This document shows positions 28,394 to 33,385 of a stretch of DNA of 42,808 nt, piece after piece. How positions within the stretch are numbered: position 1 is the stretch's first letter; each line of letters opens with the position of its first letter. Origin of the DNA: a virus; IMG/VR virus record IMGVR_UViG_3300006865_000003, positions 1 to 42,808 of that record; one strand, given 5' to 3'. The notes beneath the pieces are model-generated. The model worked only from the letters and a program-made list of their open reading frames with translations, ran no database searches and was not told the origin of the DNA. Made by a program: the position numbers and the translations under genes.

Positions 28394-28456
28394 CCAAGTC
28401 AACCAAGTCAACCAAGTCAACCAAGTCAACCAAGTCAACCAAGTAAACCAAGCAAA
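28394..28456. repeat. Seven 9-bp tandem repeats (CCAAGTCAA)
   Basis: Five perfect and two decayed copies of CCAAGTCAA follow one another without spacers (the last two read CCAAGTAAA and CCAAGCAAA). A related CCAAGTCAA copy also lies at 28336-28344. The array sits between the small leftward gene with its terminator and the candidate late promoter, where iterons or binding sites for an early regulator might be expected. Confidence 0.85.
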
Positions 28457-28460
28457 CAAA

Positions 28461-28489
28461 GCTTGCCATTAACCCAGTTAATGGCAAGC
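28461..28489 (-). terminator. Rho-independent terminator of the small leftward gene
   Basis: A perfect 13-bp stem (GCTTGCCATTAAC with GTTAATGGCAAGC) closes a 3-nt loop. On the minus strand it is followed directly by TTTGTTTGCTTGG, a T-rich tail; on the plus strand there is none. It lies 24 bp past the stop of the minus-strand gene 28513-28761 and insulates it from the virion block. Confidence 0.8.
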
Positions 28490-28512
28490 CAAGTAAACAA
28501 GGTTACCAAGTG

Positions 28513-28761: not shown

Positions 28762-28831
28762 TGCGGTTGCTCCGTTGGTTGAGTGGTCATGGCATAGCAC
28801 GGGTGCGTTGTCAAATCGTTAAGGCGGGAGC

Positions 28832-28902
28832 GGCGGGTCTAGGGTTCCGTGACGTGGGGTCTGAGCGGCGTGGGGTCTGAGTGGCGGGTCTAGGGTTCTG
28901 TG
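28832..28902. repeat. Pair of interleaved direct repeats in the control region
   Basis: GGCGGGTCTAGGGTTCNGTG occurs at 28832-28851 and 28883-28902 with one difference. Between them, CGTGGGGTCTGAGNGGCG occurs twice, at 28853-28870 and 28869-28886, overlapping by two bases. No gene is seen here. Confidence 0.8.
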
Positions 28903-28972
28903 GCCAGGTGGCTAGGTGGCTCGGCGGCTAGGTGGCCAAGTGGCCAGGTGGCTCAGTGGCCAGGTGGCGTGG
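28901..28972. repeat. Nine 8-bp degenerate tandem repeats (TGGCCAGG)
   Basis: Nine consecutive octamers follow the pattern TGGC(C/T)(A/C)(G/A)G with few changes (for example TGGCCAGG, TGGCTAGG, TGGCTCAG). The array directly follows the 20-bp repeats and precedes the AT-rich island, a layout like protein-binding repeats beside an unwinding region. Confidence 0.8.
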
Positions 28973-29018
28973 GTATGGGAATTTAGCAGCGTGGGGAGCC
29001 AAGTGGCGGAGCAGTGTT

Positions 29019-29190
29019 GTACTAAACATAAAAACTAAGATAACGTAGCAAAGTTAAATTATTATAAATATATTAGTAAGACCTTGCTCGCGCGTTATGT
29101 TCTATTGGGCGGAATAACTAATATAATAATAAATATAAAAGAAGCATAAGATATAGTAGTTATACTGTAAAAACAAACATATAAGGAATC
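29019..29190. other. AT-rich island, candidate replication origin
   Basis: About 170 bp are very rich in A and T (runs such as AAATTATTATAAATATATTAG and AATATAATAATAAATATAAA) in a genome that is otherwise GC-rich. Repeat arrays lie on both sides and transcription diverges around it. These are common traits of a DNA-unwinding element at an origin. No ribosome-binding site or coding frame is seen. Confidence 0.45.
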
Positions 29191-29244
29191 AGAGCAACTC
29201 GCCTGTTAAGGGTGCGACATTCTGTCCATTTTTCTCCCCACACA

Positions 29245-29319
29245 CGTGCTCGCCACATTCTCGTCACAACATTCTCGCCGCATTCTCGTCACAATCGTGC
29301 TCGCCACATTCTCGTCACA
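29245..29319. repeat. 24-bp direct repeat and CATTCTCG array
   Basis: The 24-bp sequence starting CGTGCTCGCCACATTCTCGT is present at 29245-29268 and 29296-29319. The core CATTCTCG(T/C)C(A/G)C also occurs between them, making four copies within about 75 bp. It lies upstream of the first rightward gene and may bind a regulator. From 29320 to 29450 I see no gene and no clear promoter. Confidence 0.8.
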
Positions 29320-29466
29320 CACGCCACCGCGTAAACGACCGGCGAAAAGACTACACACAAAGCCAAAAATAAATAATCGCTAACTACGATTATGGCTAGA
29401 ATTTAAACGCACGCCAGTCTATAACCCTCCCACGCGCGACGTGCGCGCCGCGAAGGAGCAACCACA

Positions 29467-30765
29467 ATGGCGATGTCCCCAGGTACTAAAAAATGGTCCA
29501 CACTGGCCTCGTGGTCGGATGAGGACGTTTATAGCTATTTCAGAAACACGATGCGCCAACCCCCAGAGCATGCCCGTAACTCGCTTGTGGCGGTCCGGCG
29601 CTCTTACGACCGGCGCGGCGTGCGTTACTTTTCAGGCGAGATGCCTTCCTATAAAGACGCCTTTAGTGCGCTCTCGCAGGACGTGCGTGACAATATCTTG
29701 CGCGATATAAACGTGCGTGGCAATATCTTGCGCGATATAAGCAGCGCCGAACCGACGCCCCAAGAGACGCACAAGGCCGAGCCCACGCCTGTTTTCGTCC
29801 CGCCCCAAGAGACGCGCAAGGCCGAGCCCACGCCTGTTTTCGTCCCGCCCCTAGACTTGCCGGCGGCTGACCCCGCCATGAAGCCTTTGGCGGCGATGAT
29901 CGCGCCGCACCTGGCTGACCTGTTGGCCACCTCAATCCAGAACGCCGTGCGCGCCTCGCACGAGGCGCTGGCGGCTAACCAAGTCACGCGCCTTGCGGTC
30001 GTGAGCAACGGTGAGCCGCCTCGCGTTATCGAGGGACTGCACCACGAAGCGGCGTCTAAAGTCATCTCGCTTGTGGGCGCGGGCGCTAACGTGATGCTAG
30101 TCGGCCCGGCCGGGTGTGGTAAGACGTCCATCGCCTCCAGCGTGGCCAAGGCTTTCCAGCGCCCGTTGACGGTCATATCGTGCAGCGCCGGCATGAGCGA
30201 GGCGCAGTTGCTGGGGCGCTTGCTCCCGCTTGGCGAGGGCGGCGCGTTCCGCTACGTTGAGAGCCCGTTCGTGCGGGCATACAGCACCGGCGGCGTAATC
30301 CTGCTCGATGAACTGGACGCGGCCGATAGTAACCTGCTTCTTGTGATAAACGCCGCGCTGGCCAATGGGTTTATTACCGTAGAGGCGCGTGCGTCTTCTA
30401 ACCTCGATACGCGCGTGGTGCGTCACCCCGACACGCTGATAATCGCTGCGGCGAACACTTGGGGACATGGAGCCGACAGTCAGTATGTCGGGCGCGCCGC
30501 GCTGGACGCCGCTACGCTGGACCGGTTTTATCGGCTCGCCATTGATTATGACCACGCTCTAGAGCGCGCCATTGGCTCGCCCGAAGCGGTAGCGTATGTG
30601 CAAATACTTCGCAAGAAAGCGCGCGAGGCGAAGCTTAAGCGCGTGGTGTCAACGCGTATGATCGGCCGGCTTGACGCCGGCGTGCGCGCTGGCCTGACGC
30701 TGAAGCAAGCGTGCGAGGACGAGCTAGCGGCGTGGTCGCCTGATGAGCGCGCCAAGGTGGCGTAA
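29467..30765 (+). CDS. MoxR/CbbQ-type AAA+ ATPase
   Basis: First gene of the rightward block, with an AAGGAGCA site. The product has 432 residues. Residues 1-130 are a variable head with two in-frame duplications (NILRDINVRGNILRDI; PQETHKAEPTPVFVPP repeated). The AAA+ core shows Walker A GPAGCGKTS (about 213-221), Walker B GVILLDELD (about 276-284) and a sensor region LIIAAANTWG near 325-335. In cells MoxR-type ATPases act with VWA-domain partners to remodel protein complexes. The next gene encodes a partner candidate. In the phage early block it may act on a host complex or on replication or modification enzymes; which one cannot be seen. Confidence 0.85.
   Translation: MAMSPGTKKWSTLASWSDEDVYSYFRNTMRQPPEHARNSLVAVRRSYDRRGVRYFSGEMPSYKDAFSALSQDVRDNILRDINVRGNILRDISSAEPTPQETHKAEPTPVFVPPQETRKAEPTPVFVPPLDLPAADPAMKPLAAMIAPHLADLLATSIQNAVRASHEALAANQVTRLAVVSNGEPPRVIEGLHHEAASKVISLVGAGANVMLVGPAGCGKTSIASSVAKAFQRPLTVISCSAGMSEAQLLGRLLPLGEGGAFRYVESPFVRAYSTGGVILLDELDAADSNLLLVINAALANGFITVEARASSNLDTRVVRHPDTLIIAAANTWGHGADSQYVGRAALDAATLDRFYRLAIDYDHALERAIGSPEAVAYVQILRKKAREAKLKRVVSTRMIGRLDAGVRAGLTLKQACEDELAAWSPDERAKVA
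29681..29846 (+). repeat. Two tandem in-frame duplications in the AAA+ gene
   Basis: Positions 29681-29710 and 29711-29740 are a 30-bp unit repeated with one change. A second unit of 45 bp is repeated at about 29757-29801 and 29802-29846, also nearly exact. Both keep the frame and lengthen the linker before the ATPase core by 10 and 15 residues. Their near identity means they are recent. Confidence 0.85.
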
Positions 30766-30835
30766 TTTTAAAAAGCGGCGCAACGTATTGACGGGGTGAC
30801 CGCGCCGCCTCATTGTCGGGATAGGAGCAAGTCCA

Positions 30836-31711
30836 ATGTCTAACAAGTTTTCTATAGCGCATTCGTTCGATAGCGTTAGCGAGCTAGTGGCGCACGCACG
30901 GCGCGTCGAGAGCGAGTGCGGGATTTTTGAAAACGCAAAAATCGGCGCGCTTGATCGCGTGCCGCGCGCGTGGATATGCAGTGACCGGCCTTATGTGAAC
31001 AGCTACAAGGACGCGTTACAAGCTCTAGAAGAACCCCGATTTGACGCTGGCGTTGATCGTATCGAGAGGCTGACTGAGAAGATTGTAGCGCCGGCCCCAA
31101 CCAGCGTTGCGCGCAAGCTACGGCGCGGCGCGGAGGGCGATGAGTTGGACCTGGCCCGCGTGTGGGACGGCGAGCTAGATACCGCGTGGACAATGGCGCG
31201 ACGCACGCCCGTCCCTAAAGCCTCGCGTGTGCTGGTCGTGGTGCGCGTTAACGCCATGGCTTTTATTAAGGCCGATGTGCTGGCGTGGCGCGGCGTCGCG
31301 GCGCTGGCGTTGGCGGACAGGCTGGAAGCGGCCGGCTACGTTGTGCGCATCGCTGCGCGCCGTCTAGCTGATATTCGCTACGTTAACAGAGCTTACAAAG
31401 GGACGCACACCGTTGACGTGACGGTGCGTAAAGAAGGCGAGCCGCTGGACATTCACCGCGCCGCGTCTCTTATCGCCTCGCCGCTTTTATTTCGAGGCAT
31501 CATGCTTCCTATGACGGCGTTTGAAGCGCCGGCGCGCGTGTCGCCATCGTTTAGTGTTACCTCAAGCGATGGCGATGACGTCGAGGCCCCACCCGGCTTT
31601 GACTTGGTGTTTGTAGCCACAGATCGCGTTAGCGACGCCGATAGCGCCAGCGCATTTGTGCGGCACGCCGTGGCGCGTCTTGAGGCTATAAACACGGAGC
31701 GTGATGCATGA
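30836..31711 (+). CDS. Hypothetical partner of the AAA+ ATPase, possible degenerate VWA-like fold (291 aa)
   Basis: A good site (TAGGAGCAA) precedes the ATG. The centre (about 125-190) has a strand SRVLVVVRVN, then a helix WRGVAALALADRLEAAGY and a second strand VVRIAARR, an order like the first part of a von Willebrand A fold, but the metal-site DxSxS is not seen. The C-terminal part again has strand DLVFVATDRV and a helix. MoxR-type ATPases usually have a VWA partner as next gene, which makes this reading attractive; it remains inference. A loose stem-loop lies in the gap before it (30775-30808). Confidence 0.7.
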   Translation: MSNKFSIAHSFDSVSELVAHARRVESECGIFENAKIGALDRVPRAWICSDRPYVNSYKDALQALEEPRFDAGVDRIERLTEKIVAPAPTSVARKLRRGAEGDELDLARVWDGELDTAWTMARRTPVPKASRVLVVVRVNAMAFIKADVLAWRGVAALALADRLEAAGYVVRIAARRLADIRYVNRAYKGTHTVDVTVRKEGEPLDIHRAASLIASPLLFRGIMLPMTAFEAPARVSPSFSVTSSDGDDVEAPPGFDLVFVATDRVSDADSASAFVRHAVARLEAINTERDA

Positions 31712-31766
31712 GGGCCGTTAGACTGCTTTGCCTGCACGATGACTTATCACGTTATGCGCCCGGTTT

Positions 31767-31787
31767 GGGGCGATGAGCTAAAGGAGC
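31767..31787 (+). promoter_or_regulatory. Recurring ribosome-binding leader (copy 1)
   Basis: The 21 bases ending CTAAAGGAGC, which include the ribosome-binding site of the methyltransferase-like gene, are repeated exactly at 32437-32457 in front of the next gene. In the second place the first bases are also the end of the methyltransferase-like coding frame. Such copying would move a working translation start from gene to gene. Confidence 0.75.
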
Positions 31788-31795
31788 AAACAAAA

Positions 31796-32446
31796 ATGGC
31801 AATGTCGCCCGGCGTTGAAAATGGTCTACACCGGCCGCCCGGCCGCGAAATGCGCGTGCTCGTTGCCTGCGAGCAAAGCGGCGTGGTGCGGCGCGCGTTC
31901 GCTGCGCGTGGGCATGACGCATGGTCATGCGATTTGCTACCCGCCGAAGATCGAAGCAACAAACACATTGTGGGCAAAGTCGAGAACATACTAGATTGGG
32001 GCTGGGACCTCATGGTCGCGCATCCGCCTTGCACACGTCTCTGCAACAGCGGCGTCCGTTGGCTGCACACGCCGCCGCCAGGCCGGACGAAGCAGGACAT
32101 GTGGGACGATATGTACGCCGCCTGCGACCTGTTTATGACGTTGTGGAAGGCGCCCGTCGAGCGCATCGCCATAGAGAACCCGATCATGCACAGGCACGCA
32201 CGCGAGCGAATGGGTTCGAGCCTACCGCGCCACGCGCAGATCATACAACCTTTCCAGTTTGGTCACGGCGAGACGAAAGCGACGTGCTTGTGGCTCAAGA
32301 ACCTGACGCTTCTTGTACCGACGAAAATAGTTGATGGCCGTGAGCCACGCGTTCATCTCATGTCGCCCAGCGCCGACCGCTGGAAAAAACGCTCGCGAAC
32401 ATACACGGGCATTGCCGAAGCGATGGCCGATCAATGGGGGCGATGA
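31796..32446 (+). CDS. Phage DNA cytosine methyltransferase-like protein
   Basis: With the start at 31796 (site AAAGGAG) the product has 216 residues; an ATG at 31850 gives the form without the 18-residue leader. The part from MRVLVACEQSGVVRRAFAAR, GHDAWSCDLLPAED, DLMVAHPPCTRLCNSG and RIAIENPIMH is a family common in phages and annotated as cytosine methyltransferase: it has the SAM-loop-like start, a PPC motif that in true C5-methyltransferases holds the catalytic Cys, and an ENP in the position of ENV. It is shorter than real enzymes and has no clear target-recognition domain, so activity is uncertain. It could protect phage DNA from restriction. Confidence 0.7.
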   Translation: MAMSPGVENGLHRPPGREMRVLVACEQSGVVRRAFAARGHDAWSCDLLPAEDRSNKHIVGKVENILDWGWDLMVAHPPCTRLCNSGVRWLHTPPPGRTKQDMWDDMYAACDLFMTLWKAPVERIAIENPIMHRHARERMGSSLPRHAQIIQPFQFGHGETKATCLWLKNLTLLVPTKIVDGREPRVHLMSPSADRWKKRSRTYTGIAEAMADQWGR

Positions 32447-32671: not shown

Positions 32672-33385
32672 ATGATTAACGAAGTTACCTTCTGGAACGT
32701 GGTTTTTGGCGCTGCTCGCGTGTATGACAAAGCTAACGTGTCCGGCGACGCTCGCGTGTCCGGCTACGCCAGCGTGTCCGGCGACGCTCGCGTGTCCGGC
32801 GACGCTTGCGTGTATGACAAAGCTAACGTGTACGGCGACGCTCGCGTGTCCGGCGCTGCTCGCGTGTCCGGCGACGCTCGCGTGTCCGGCGACGCTCACG
32901 TGTCCGGCTACGCCAGCGTGTCCGGCAACGCTCACGTGTATGGCGACGCTTGCGTGTCCGGCGACGCTCACGTGTCCGGCGACGCTCGCGTGTCCGGCTA
33001 CGCCAGCGTGTCCGGCGACGCTCGCGTGTCCGGCGACGCTCACGTGTCCGGCGACGCTTGCGTGTCCGGCGCTGCTCGCGTGTCCGGCGACGCTCACGTG
33101 TATGGCGACGCTCGCGTGTCCGGCGACGCTCACGTGTCCGGCGACGCTTGCGTGAACACTAAAACCGGCTGCATGCACGGTTATTTCCGCGCACGCAGTG
33201 GGACCTATTGCTTGACGTTGTTCACGACCAAGAGCGGGCGCGTGGGCTTCACGTGGGGGTGTAGGAGCGGAGACGATTTGCGCGCTTATCTTTCCGACCC
33301 CTCTTATGACTGGTTGCGTGACCTTCCTTTAGCTTTTTTGCGTGTGTTCGAGATTACTAACGGGATTGGTCGGGAGAGTGATTAA
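32672..33385 (+). CDS. Hexapeptide-repeat protein (left-handed beta-helix), YdcK-like
   Basis: The product has 237 residues. Residues 15 to about 164 are 25 consecutive hexads of the form A-x-V-(S/Y)-G-(D/Y/A), the sequence code of a left-handed parallel beta-helix, giving about eight coils. Val and Ala point inward; the residue after Ala varies among Arg, His, Cys, Ser and Asn. A C-terminal part (about 165-237: CMHGYFRARSGTYCLTLFTT and on) is a separate small fold. In bacteria such helices occur in acyltransferases (YdcK type), but no catalytic His-loop is evident. A binding surface, perhaps mimicking a charged partner, is equally possible. Site AAAGGAGG. Confidence 0.8.
   Translation: MINEVTFWNVVFGAARVYDKANVSGDARVSGYASVSGDARVSGDACVYDKANVYGDARVSGAARVSGDARVSGDAHVSGYASVSGNAHVYGDACVSGDAHVSGDARVSGYASVSGDARVSGDAHVSGDACVSGAARVSGDAHVYGDARVSGDAHVSGDACVNTKTGCMHGYFRARSGTYCLTLFTTKSGRVGFTWGCRSGDDLRAYLSDPSYDWLRDLPLAFLRVFEITNGIGRESD
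32714..33163 (+). repeat. 18-bp tandem repeat array coding the hexapeptide helix
   Basis: Twenty-five 18-bp units of the type GTGTCCGGCGACGCTNNC follow each other in frame. Third bases are nearly fixed, so units have been copied recently; changes concentrate in the codon after Ala (CGC, CAC, TGC, AGC, AAC) and in the Asp codon (GAC, TAC, GCT). Confidence 0.9.

Follow-up and report, generated by a model that had tools for sequence, protein, structure and literature searches.

The window analysed here is the whole 42,808-base virus record IMGVR_UViG_3300006865_000003 of IMG/VR. Two consecutive genes on its plus strand are the subject of this study. The first (positions 29467 to 30765) encodes a 432-residue AAA+ ATPase that belongs to AAA_5 and PHROG_249 and is CobS/NorQ/Midasin-like. 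The second (30836 to 31711) encodes a 291-residue DUF7192 protein that we consider, on the basis of a family match, a structural model and profile alignment, to be a degenerate VWA adaptor. Both open reading frames have exactly the coordinates, strand and lengths that an earlier note on this DNA had given them, and Shine-Dalgarno-like stretches are found 5' of the ATPase gene (GAAGGAG) and of the DUF7192 gene (ATAGGAG).

These are the first two rightward genes beyond a non-coding gap (28823 to 29466), AT-rich in part, that separates them from a leftward late block. No sigma-70-type site above chance was found within this gap. From about 26.4 kb, genes for the terminase, portal, scaffold, major capsid protein and head closure run leftward. 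The rightward block is of the replication type, with genes for a primase-helicase, a family A DNA polymerase (PolA), an exonuclease and a helicase, and we count with it the genes for an SNF2-type helicase, a ligase and another exonuclease at the start of the window. No integrase was detected among the window proteins scanned, which were a subset of the open reading frames. Directly 3' of the pair (31739 to 32446) is the gene for a PHROG_757 (DNA methyltransferase) protein without a Pfam match, and the early block also encodes a 237-residue beta-solenoid protein with short repeats that is YdcK-like and Bactofilin-like (32672 to 33385). The edge of the leftward block (28400 to 28510) carries tandem repeats of the CAACCAAGT type, together with a strong hairpin.

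The ATPase and its pairing with DUF7192

The ATPase matched AAA_5 with an E-value of 9.6e-21 and PHROG_249, which is labelled 'porphyrin biosynthesis', with an E-value of 2e-52. When a profile of 19 ATPases was compared with solved structures, it matched Midasin (2e-55) and CobS (1e-18), and also CbbQ and NorQ. The AAA core extends from about residue 190 to residue 430, and the N-terminal region is variable; in the latter (about 29745 to 29850 of the window) a QETxKAEPTPVFVPP repeat is duplicated. The Walker A motif GPAGCGKTS (residues 213-221; 30103 to 30129, plus strand) and the Walker B motif VILLDELD (residues 277-284; 30295 to 30318, plus strand) are both present, as the earlier note had read them, and G213, G216, G218 and K219 of the former and D281, E282 and D284 of the latter are invariant in all 19 relatives. 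The same holds for N330, R353 and R397. We take K219, D281/E282, N330, R353 and R397 to be the Walker A, Walker B, sensor 1, arginine finger and sensor 2 residues, respectively, names that were assigned by alignment position and family knowledge. The helix-2-insert motif reads GRLLPLG (residues 250-256; 30214 to 30234, plus strand). Compared with the GRxLL/I motif, GRLL is present in the window protein and the terminal T is not kept; G250 is found in 19 of 19 relatives and R251 in only 12.

Judged by its sequence, the ATPase belongs to the CobS/NorQ branch and has the full set of catalytic motifs, and on the basis of its family it would form a ring. The label 'MoxR-type' that it had received holds in the broad sense; strictly, the match is to AAA_5 (CobS, NorQ/CbbQ, GvpN, Midasin). 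The ATPase of kayvirus 812 (locus L162, 10302-11421) is annotated as split, with a premature stop, and that of phage K (locus L025, 4965-5849) has GGAGSGKN as its Walker A, without the usual T or S after the K. The ATPase of the kayvirus lineage may be altered.

Pairing was counted for those distinct ATPases whose downstream sequence was 500 bases or longer. A DUF7192 gene accompanies all 88 of them and lies directly downstream on the same strand in 86, and a single spurious DUF7192 match, a weak one (E 0.05), was encountered among 5,621 open reading frames. On genome contigs, downstream sequence was available for 14 true ATPase relatives, and each of them is paired. The pairing of the ATPase with DUF7192 is essentially obligate; the earlier note had put the two genes forward as a pair, and this survey shows that the adjacency of their families is conserved with almost no exceptions. 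We read the pair directly in Acinetobacter, Rhizobium, Mycobacterium and Tunturiibacter phages, and among Staphylococcus phage records 236 carry each of the two genes (236 match the ATPase and 236 match ORF14 of phage K). No close relative of the partner was found on plasmids. One open reading frame that joins ATPase and partner (locus L103, 6052-6987) lies at a contig end and was not used, since a deletion or an assembly join is suspected.

A VWA-like partner with a predicted finger and no MIDAS motif

The 291-residue partner matched the Pfam family DUF7192 (PF23822) with an E-value of 4e-16 (59.5 bits, for a cut-off of 27), and it is a member of this family, to which PHROG_35469 and PHROG_1909 correspond, without any difference from it. 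The libraries searched carry no annotation of function or of a VWA relationship for the family, and no paper naming DUF7192 was found among open-licence papers. Scanning viral contigs directly with this one protein found nothing, and a divergent alignment (A1) contained no conserved stretch usable as a search query; the relatives were therefore reached through the ATPase, in IMG/VR. DUF7192 was matched by 68 of the 69 partners collected.

None of these 69 proteins matched the Pfam VWA models, so that a plain family search misses the fold, and comparison of a sequence profile of the partner with the PDB gave no more than a suggestive match to CobT (E 0.054). AlphaFold2 yielded a first model from 14 sequences (pLDDT 79.9) and a second one from the 69-sequence alignment (pLDDT 90.1, pTM 0.88). 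In Foldseek searches the top five PDB matches of the second model were all NorD VWA domains in NorQD complexes (E 1e-4, probability 1.00), and NorD VWA domains of NorQ-NorD complexes were also the top PDB matches of the first (E 3e-5, probability 1.00); many other VWA folds matched more weakly. TM-scores to NorD were low (about 0.20-0.28, with an rmsd of 7-11 Å) and global superposition was poor, so that the match of the predicted structure is one of local structure and order and not of close superposition. In the viral library BFVD, DUF7192 members came first, followed by phage CobT/VWA proteins (E 5e-6 to 4e-4). After its fourth strand the model is one strand-helix unit short of a full VWA, the last unit being the one that is missing.

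Profile alignments were made with hhalign, the E-values of which apply to single comparisons: the 69 DUF7192 proteins aligned with six NorD VWA domains over 138 columns with an E-value of 2.6e-6, against a yardstick of 2.8e-7 for NorD with CobT. DUF7192 with CobT gave 1.3e-4, and the controls gave 0.15 (the ATPase) and 0.52 (an unrelated protein). NorD sequences were obtained by a NorQ family search and CobT sequences via CobT_C. The alignment with NorD spans the finger, the MIDAS strand and a later 'K..EPLD...PG.F.R' block. Models and alignments support the assignment of the partner as a degenerate VWA protein. The pLDDT 90.1 model shows the strand-helix-strand order that had been proposed for this protein as that of a VWA core, and the VWA fold suspected from it is backed by the NorD matches, at low TM-scores, and by the profile alignment.

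Conservation within DUF7192 peaks at residues 90-122 (SVARKLRRGAEGDELDLARVWDGELDTAWTMAR; 31103 to 31201, plus strand), where it reaches 1.75 bits, compared with 1.02 on average, for the 69 members. This most conserved part of the family is predicted to form a strand-helix-strand unit (strand 96-98, helix 106-110 and strand 118-120 in the partner model). It directly precedes the first VWA strand, in the same place as the finger of NorD, and a G-x-ELD motif in the finger region is common to NorD and DUF7192 in the hhalign alignment. Cryo-EM of NorQD has shown that the NorD finger (residues 403-448) sits in the NorQ pore, and that its helix contacts the NorQ helix-2 insert with its GRxLL/I motif; deletion of the finger abolishes metal insertion, and the finger is essential for remodelling (PMC13036017).

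The first VWA strand, which carries the degenerate MIDAS position, corresponds to residues 131-142 (RVLVVVRVNAMA; 31226 to 31261, plus strand). The MIDAS motif DxSxS is found in 0 of the 69 members, the window protein included, in agreement with the earlier reading that the usual metal motif is absent. At the position of the first MIDAS Asp, 55 of the 69 members have N or D and the window protein has R137; where the MIDAS Thr aligns, most of them have F or Y. The MIDAS of NorD is required for target activation and not for NorQ binding (PMC9976466), and it is thought to bind the target and not NorQ (PMC13036017, PMC9976466). The C-terminus of NorD, an important contact in NorQD, has no obvious conserved counterpart in DUF7192. 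Our core finding is that DUF7192 has lost the MIDAS, as well as the last strand-helix unit in the model, and that it appears, from prediction and alignment, to retain the finger. Motor coupling (finger) and target grip (MIDAS), which occur together in NorQD, would thereby be separated.

Relation to known pairs of AAA+ and VWA proteins

NorQ-NorD, the motor that activates nitric oxide reductase, resembles the pair in that a CobS/NorQ-type AAA+ ATPase adjoins a VWA partner. In profile alignment the finger block, the MIDAS strand and the later blocks follow one another identically in both, and NorD is the best fold match; NorD has an intact MIDAS, required for target activation (PMC9976466), and about 640 residues, whereas the DUF7192 protein has 291 residues and no MIDAS. 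CobS-CobT, including the 'cobST' gene clusters published for tailed viruses (PMC8651126), likewise combines an AAA_5 ATPase with a CobT-like VWA protein encoded by the adjacent gene, and the start of the VWA aligns between CobT and DUF7192. CobT differs by its DNSGS MIDAS and its long N-terminal part, which are both absent from the DUF7192 partner. The published MoxR-vWA pair of jumbo phages is, like the window pair, a phage-encoded chaperone with a co-chaperone, but its vWA domain is fused to a metallopeptidase (PMC7824862) and no peptidase family was detected in the window protein. A MoxR-vWA pair of an archaeal virus has also been published, as cited in PMC7824862. The view that a pair of this type is undescribed in phages is not supported: MoxR-VWA pairs of phages are known already. 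Among open-licence papers we found no description of a MIDAS-less, finger-retaining class of VWA partner.

The PHROG_249 label, the cobST proposal for tailed viruses and the distant CobT similarity of the partner would fit a cobaltochelatase helper of the CobST type through which the phage raises cobalamin synthesis in its host. Several results make this highly improbable. The ATPase scores 19 bits, far below the CobS equivalog cut-off of 559, and the CobT_C model matches nowhere in the window. The metal site is missing from every collected partner, the window partner has 291 residues when cellular CobT open frames mostly have 550-700, and no family match to CobN was obtained among the subset of open reading frames scanned. 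Cobalt chelation by the pair is unlikely, and the 'porphyrin biosynthesis' label that the ATPase receives automatically, a possible source of claims of phage vitamin B12 genes, is put in question.

A proposed remodelling motor, its timing and its candidate targets

We favour, with moderate confidence, the reading that the pair is a bipartite, NorQ-NorD-like remodelling motor with a metal-free adaptor, probably made early. If it works as NorQD does, the ATPase ring would hold the DUF7192 adaptor by its finger. This finger, which immediately precedes the first VWA strand, would enter the ring pore and contact the helix-2 insert, a step that is based on structure prediction and conservation. ATP hydrolysis would twist or pull the target complex bound to the adaptor. 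Since the MIDAS is absent, the adaptor would grip this target without the usual metal bridge, and the grip would probably come from its first 80 residues or from the remodelled former MIDAS face. The two families, the intact ATPase motifs, the missing MIDAS, the conservation of the finger-equivalent block and the near-obligate pairing are observed, and the ring, the physical complex, finger insertion, timing and target are the parts of the motor model that we infer. DUF7192, a family that occurs in hundreds of sequenced phages, among them staphylococcal phage K and many mycobacteriophages, thereby gains a testable fold and mechanism.

Early synthesis is suggested by the position of the pair as the first genes of the block on the replication side and by the transcription that would be expected for it in kayviruses. 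The pair of kayvirus 812 lies at 19.4-21.4 kb with an annotated promoter just upstream, after a tRNA-Met gene (14.2 kb) and before a lytic transglycosylase gene (31.4 kb). According to PMC7698491, tRNA-Met belongs to TU8 and the lytic enzyme gene to TU13 in kayvirus 515A1, and the units with late promoters are 7, 18, 22 and 29 (late only) and 13, 16, 19, 20 and 28 (mixed). If the gene order of 812 is that of 515A1, the pair would lie in an early-only unit; the pair genes are not named in the main text of the kayvirus and Listeria phage transcription papers. Early synthesis would make a host or replication-stage complex a more likely target than a virion part.

Alternatively, the pair could act late, as a chaperone of virion assembly that works on head or tail proteins. 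The MoxR-vWA pairs of jumbo phages and of an archaeal virus, for which such a role has been proposed, are published precedents (PMC7824862), and terminase genes rank among the most frequent of the pair's annotated upstream neighbours. However, the window pair shares strand and block with the replication genes, opposite the head genes, and the kayvirus pair is apparently among early-class transcription units, as judged from PMC7698491. Moreover, at three Bacteroidota chromosomal loci the pair lies among housekeeping genes (GNAT, dnaN, pheS and LptF/G-type), where there is no virion to build. We regard virion assembly as rather improbable. Chromosomal pairs occur in Saprospiraceae and another Bacteroidota genome (L112, L113 and L121), with a GNAT acetyltransferase gene directly upstream in L112 and L113, and at least one other genome-contig locus (L110) looks phage-derived.

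In a more specific form of the motor model, the pair would serve counter-defence or host takeover by dismantling a host complex. The pair forms the first genes of the early block and its carriers span a very wide host range. Neighbour surveys of the pair revealed no recurrent third gene that points to a target, and the lack of a conserved phage partner gene fits a host-encoded one. On the other hand, PADLOC gave only P-loop-level matches to IetA, and the chromosomal copies among housekeeping genes oppose a purely phage-takeover role; we regard this version as a tentative possibility. Doubtful as well is the idea that DUF7192 and its AAA+ ATPase constitute a distinct, metal-independent class of MoxR-VWA motor, present in many phages and on some Bacteroidota chromosomes, with which phages would remodel one conserved host complex early in infection. 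Many of the mycobacteriophages (hits H65-H76) have two DUF7192 places per genome, with 174 places in 99 records.
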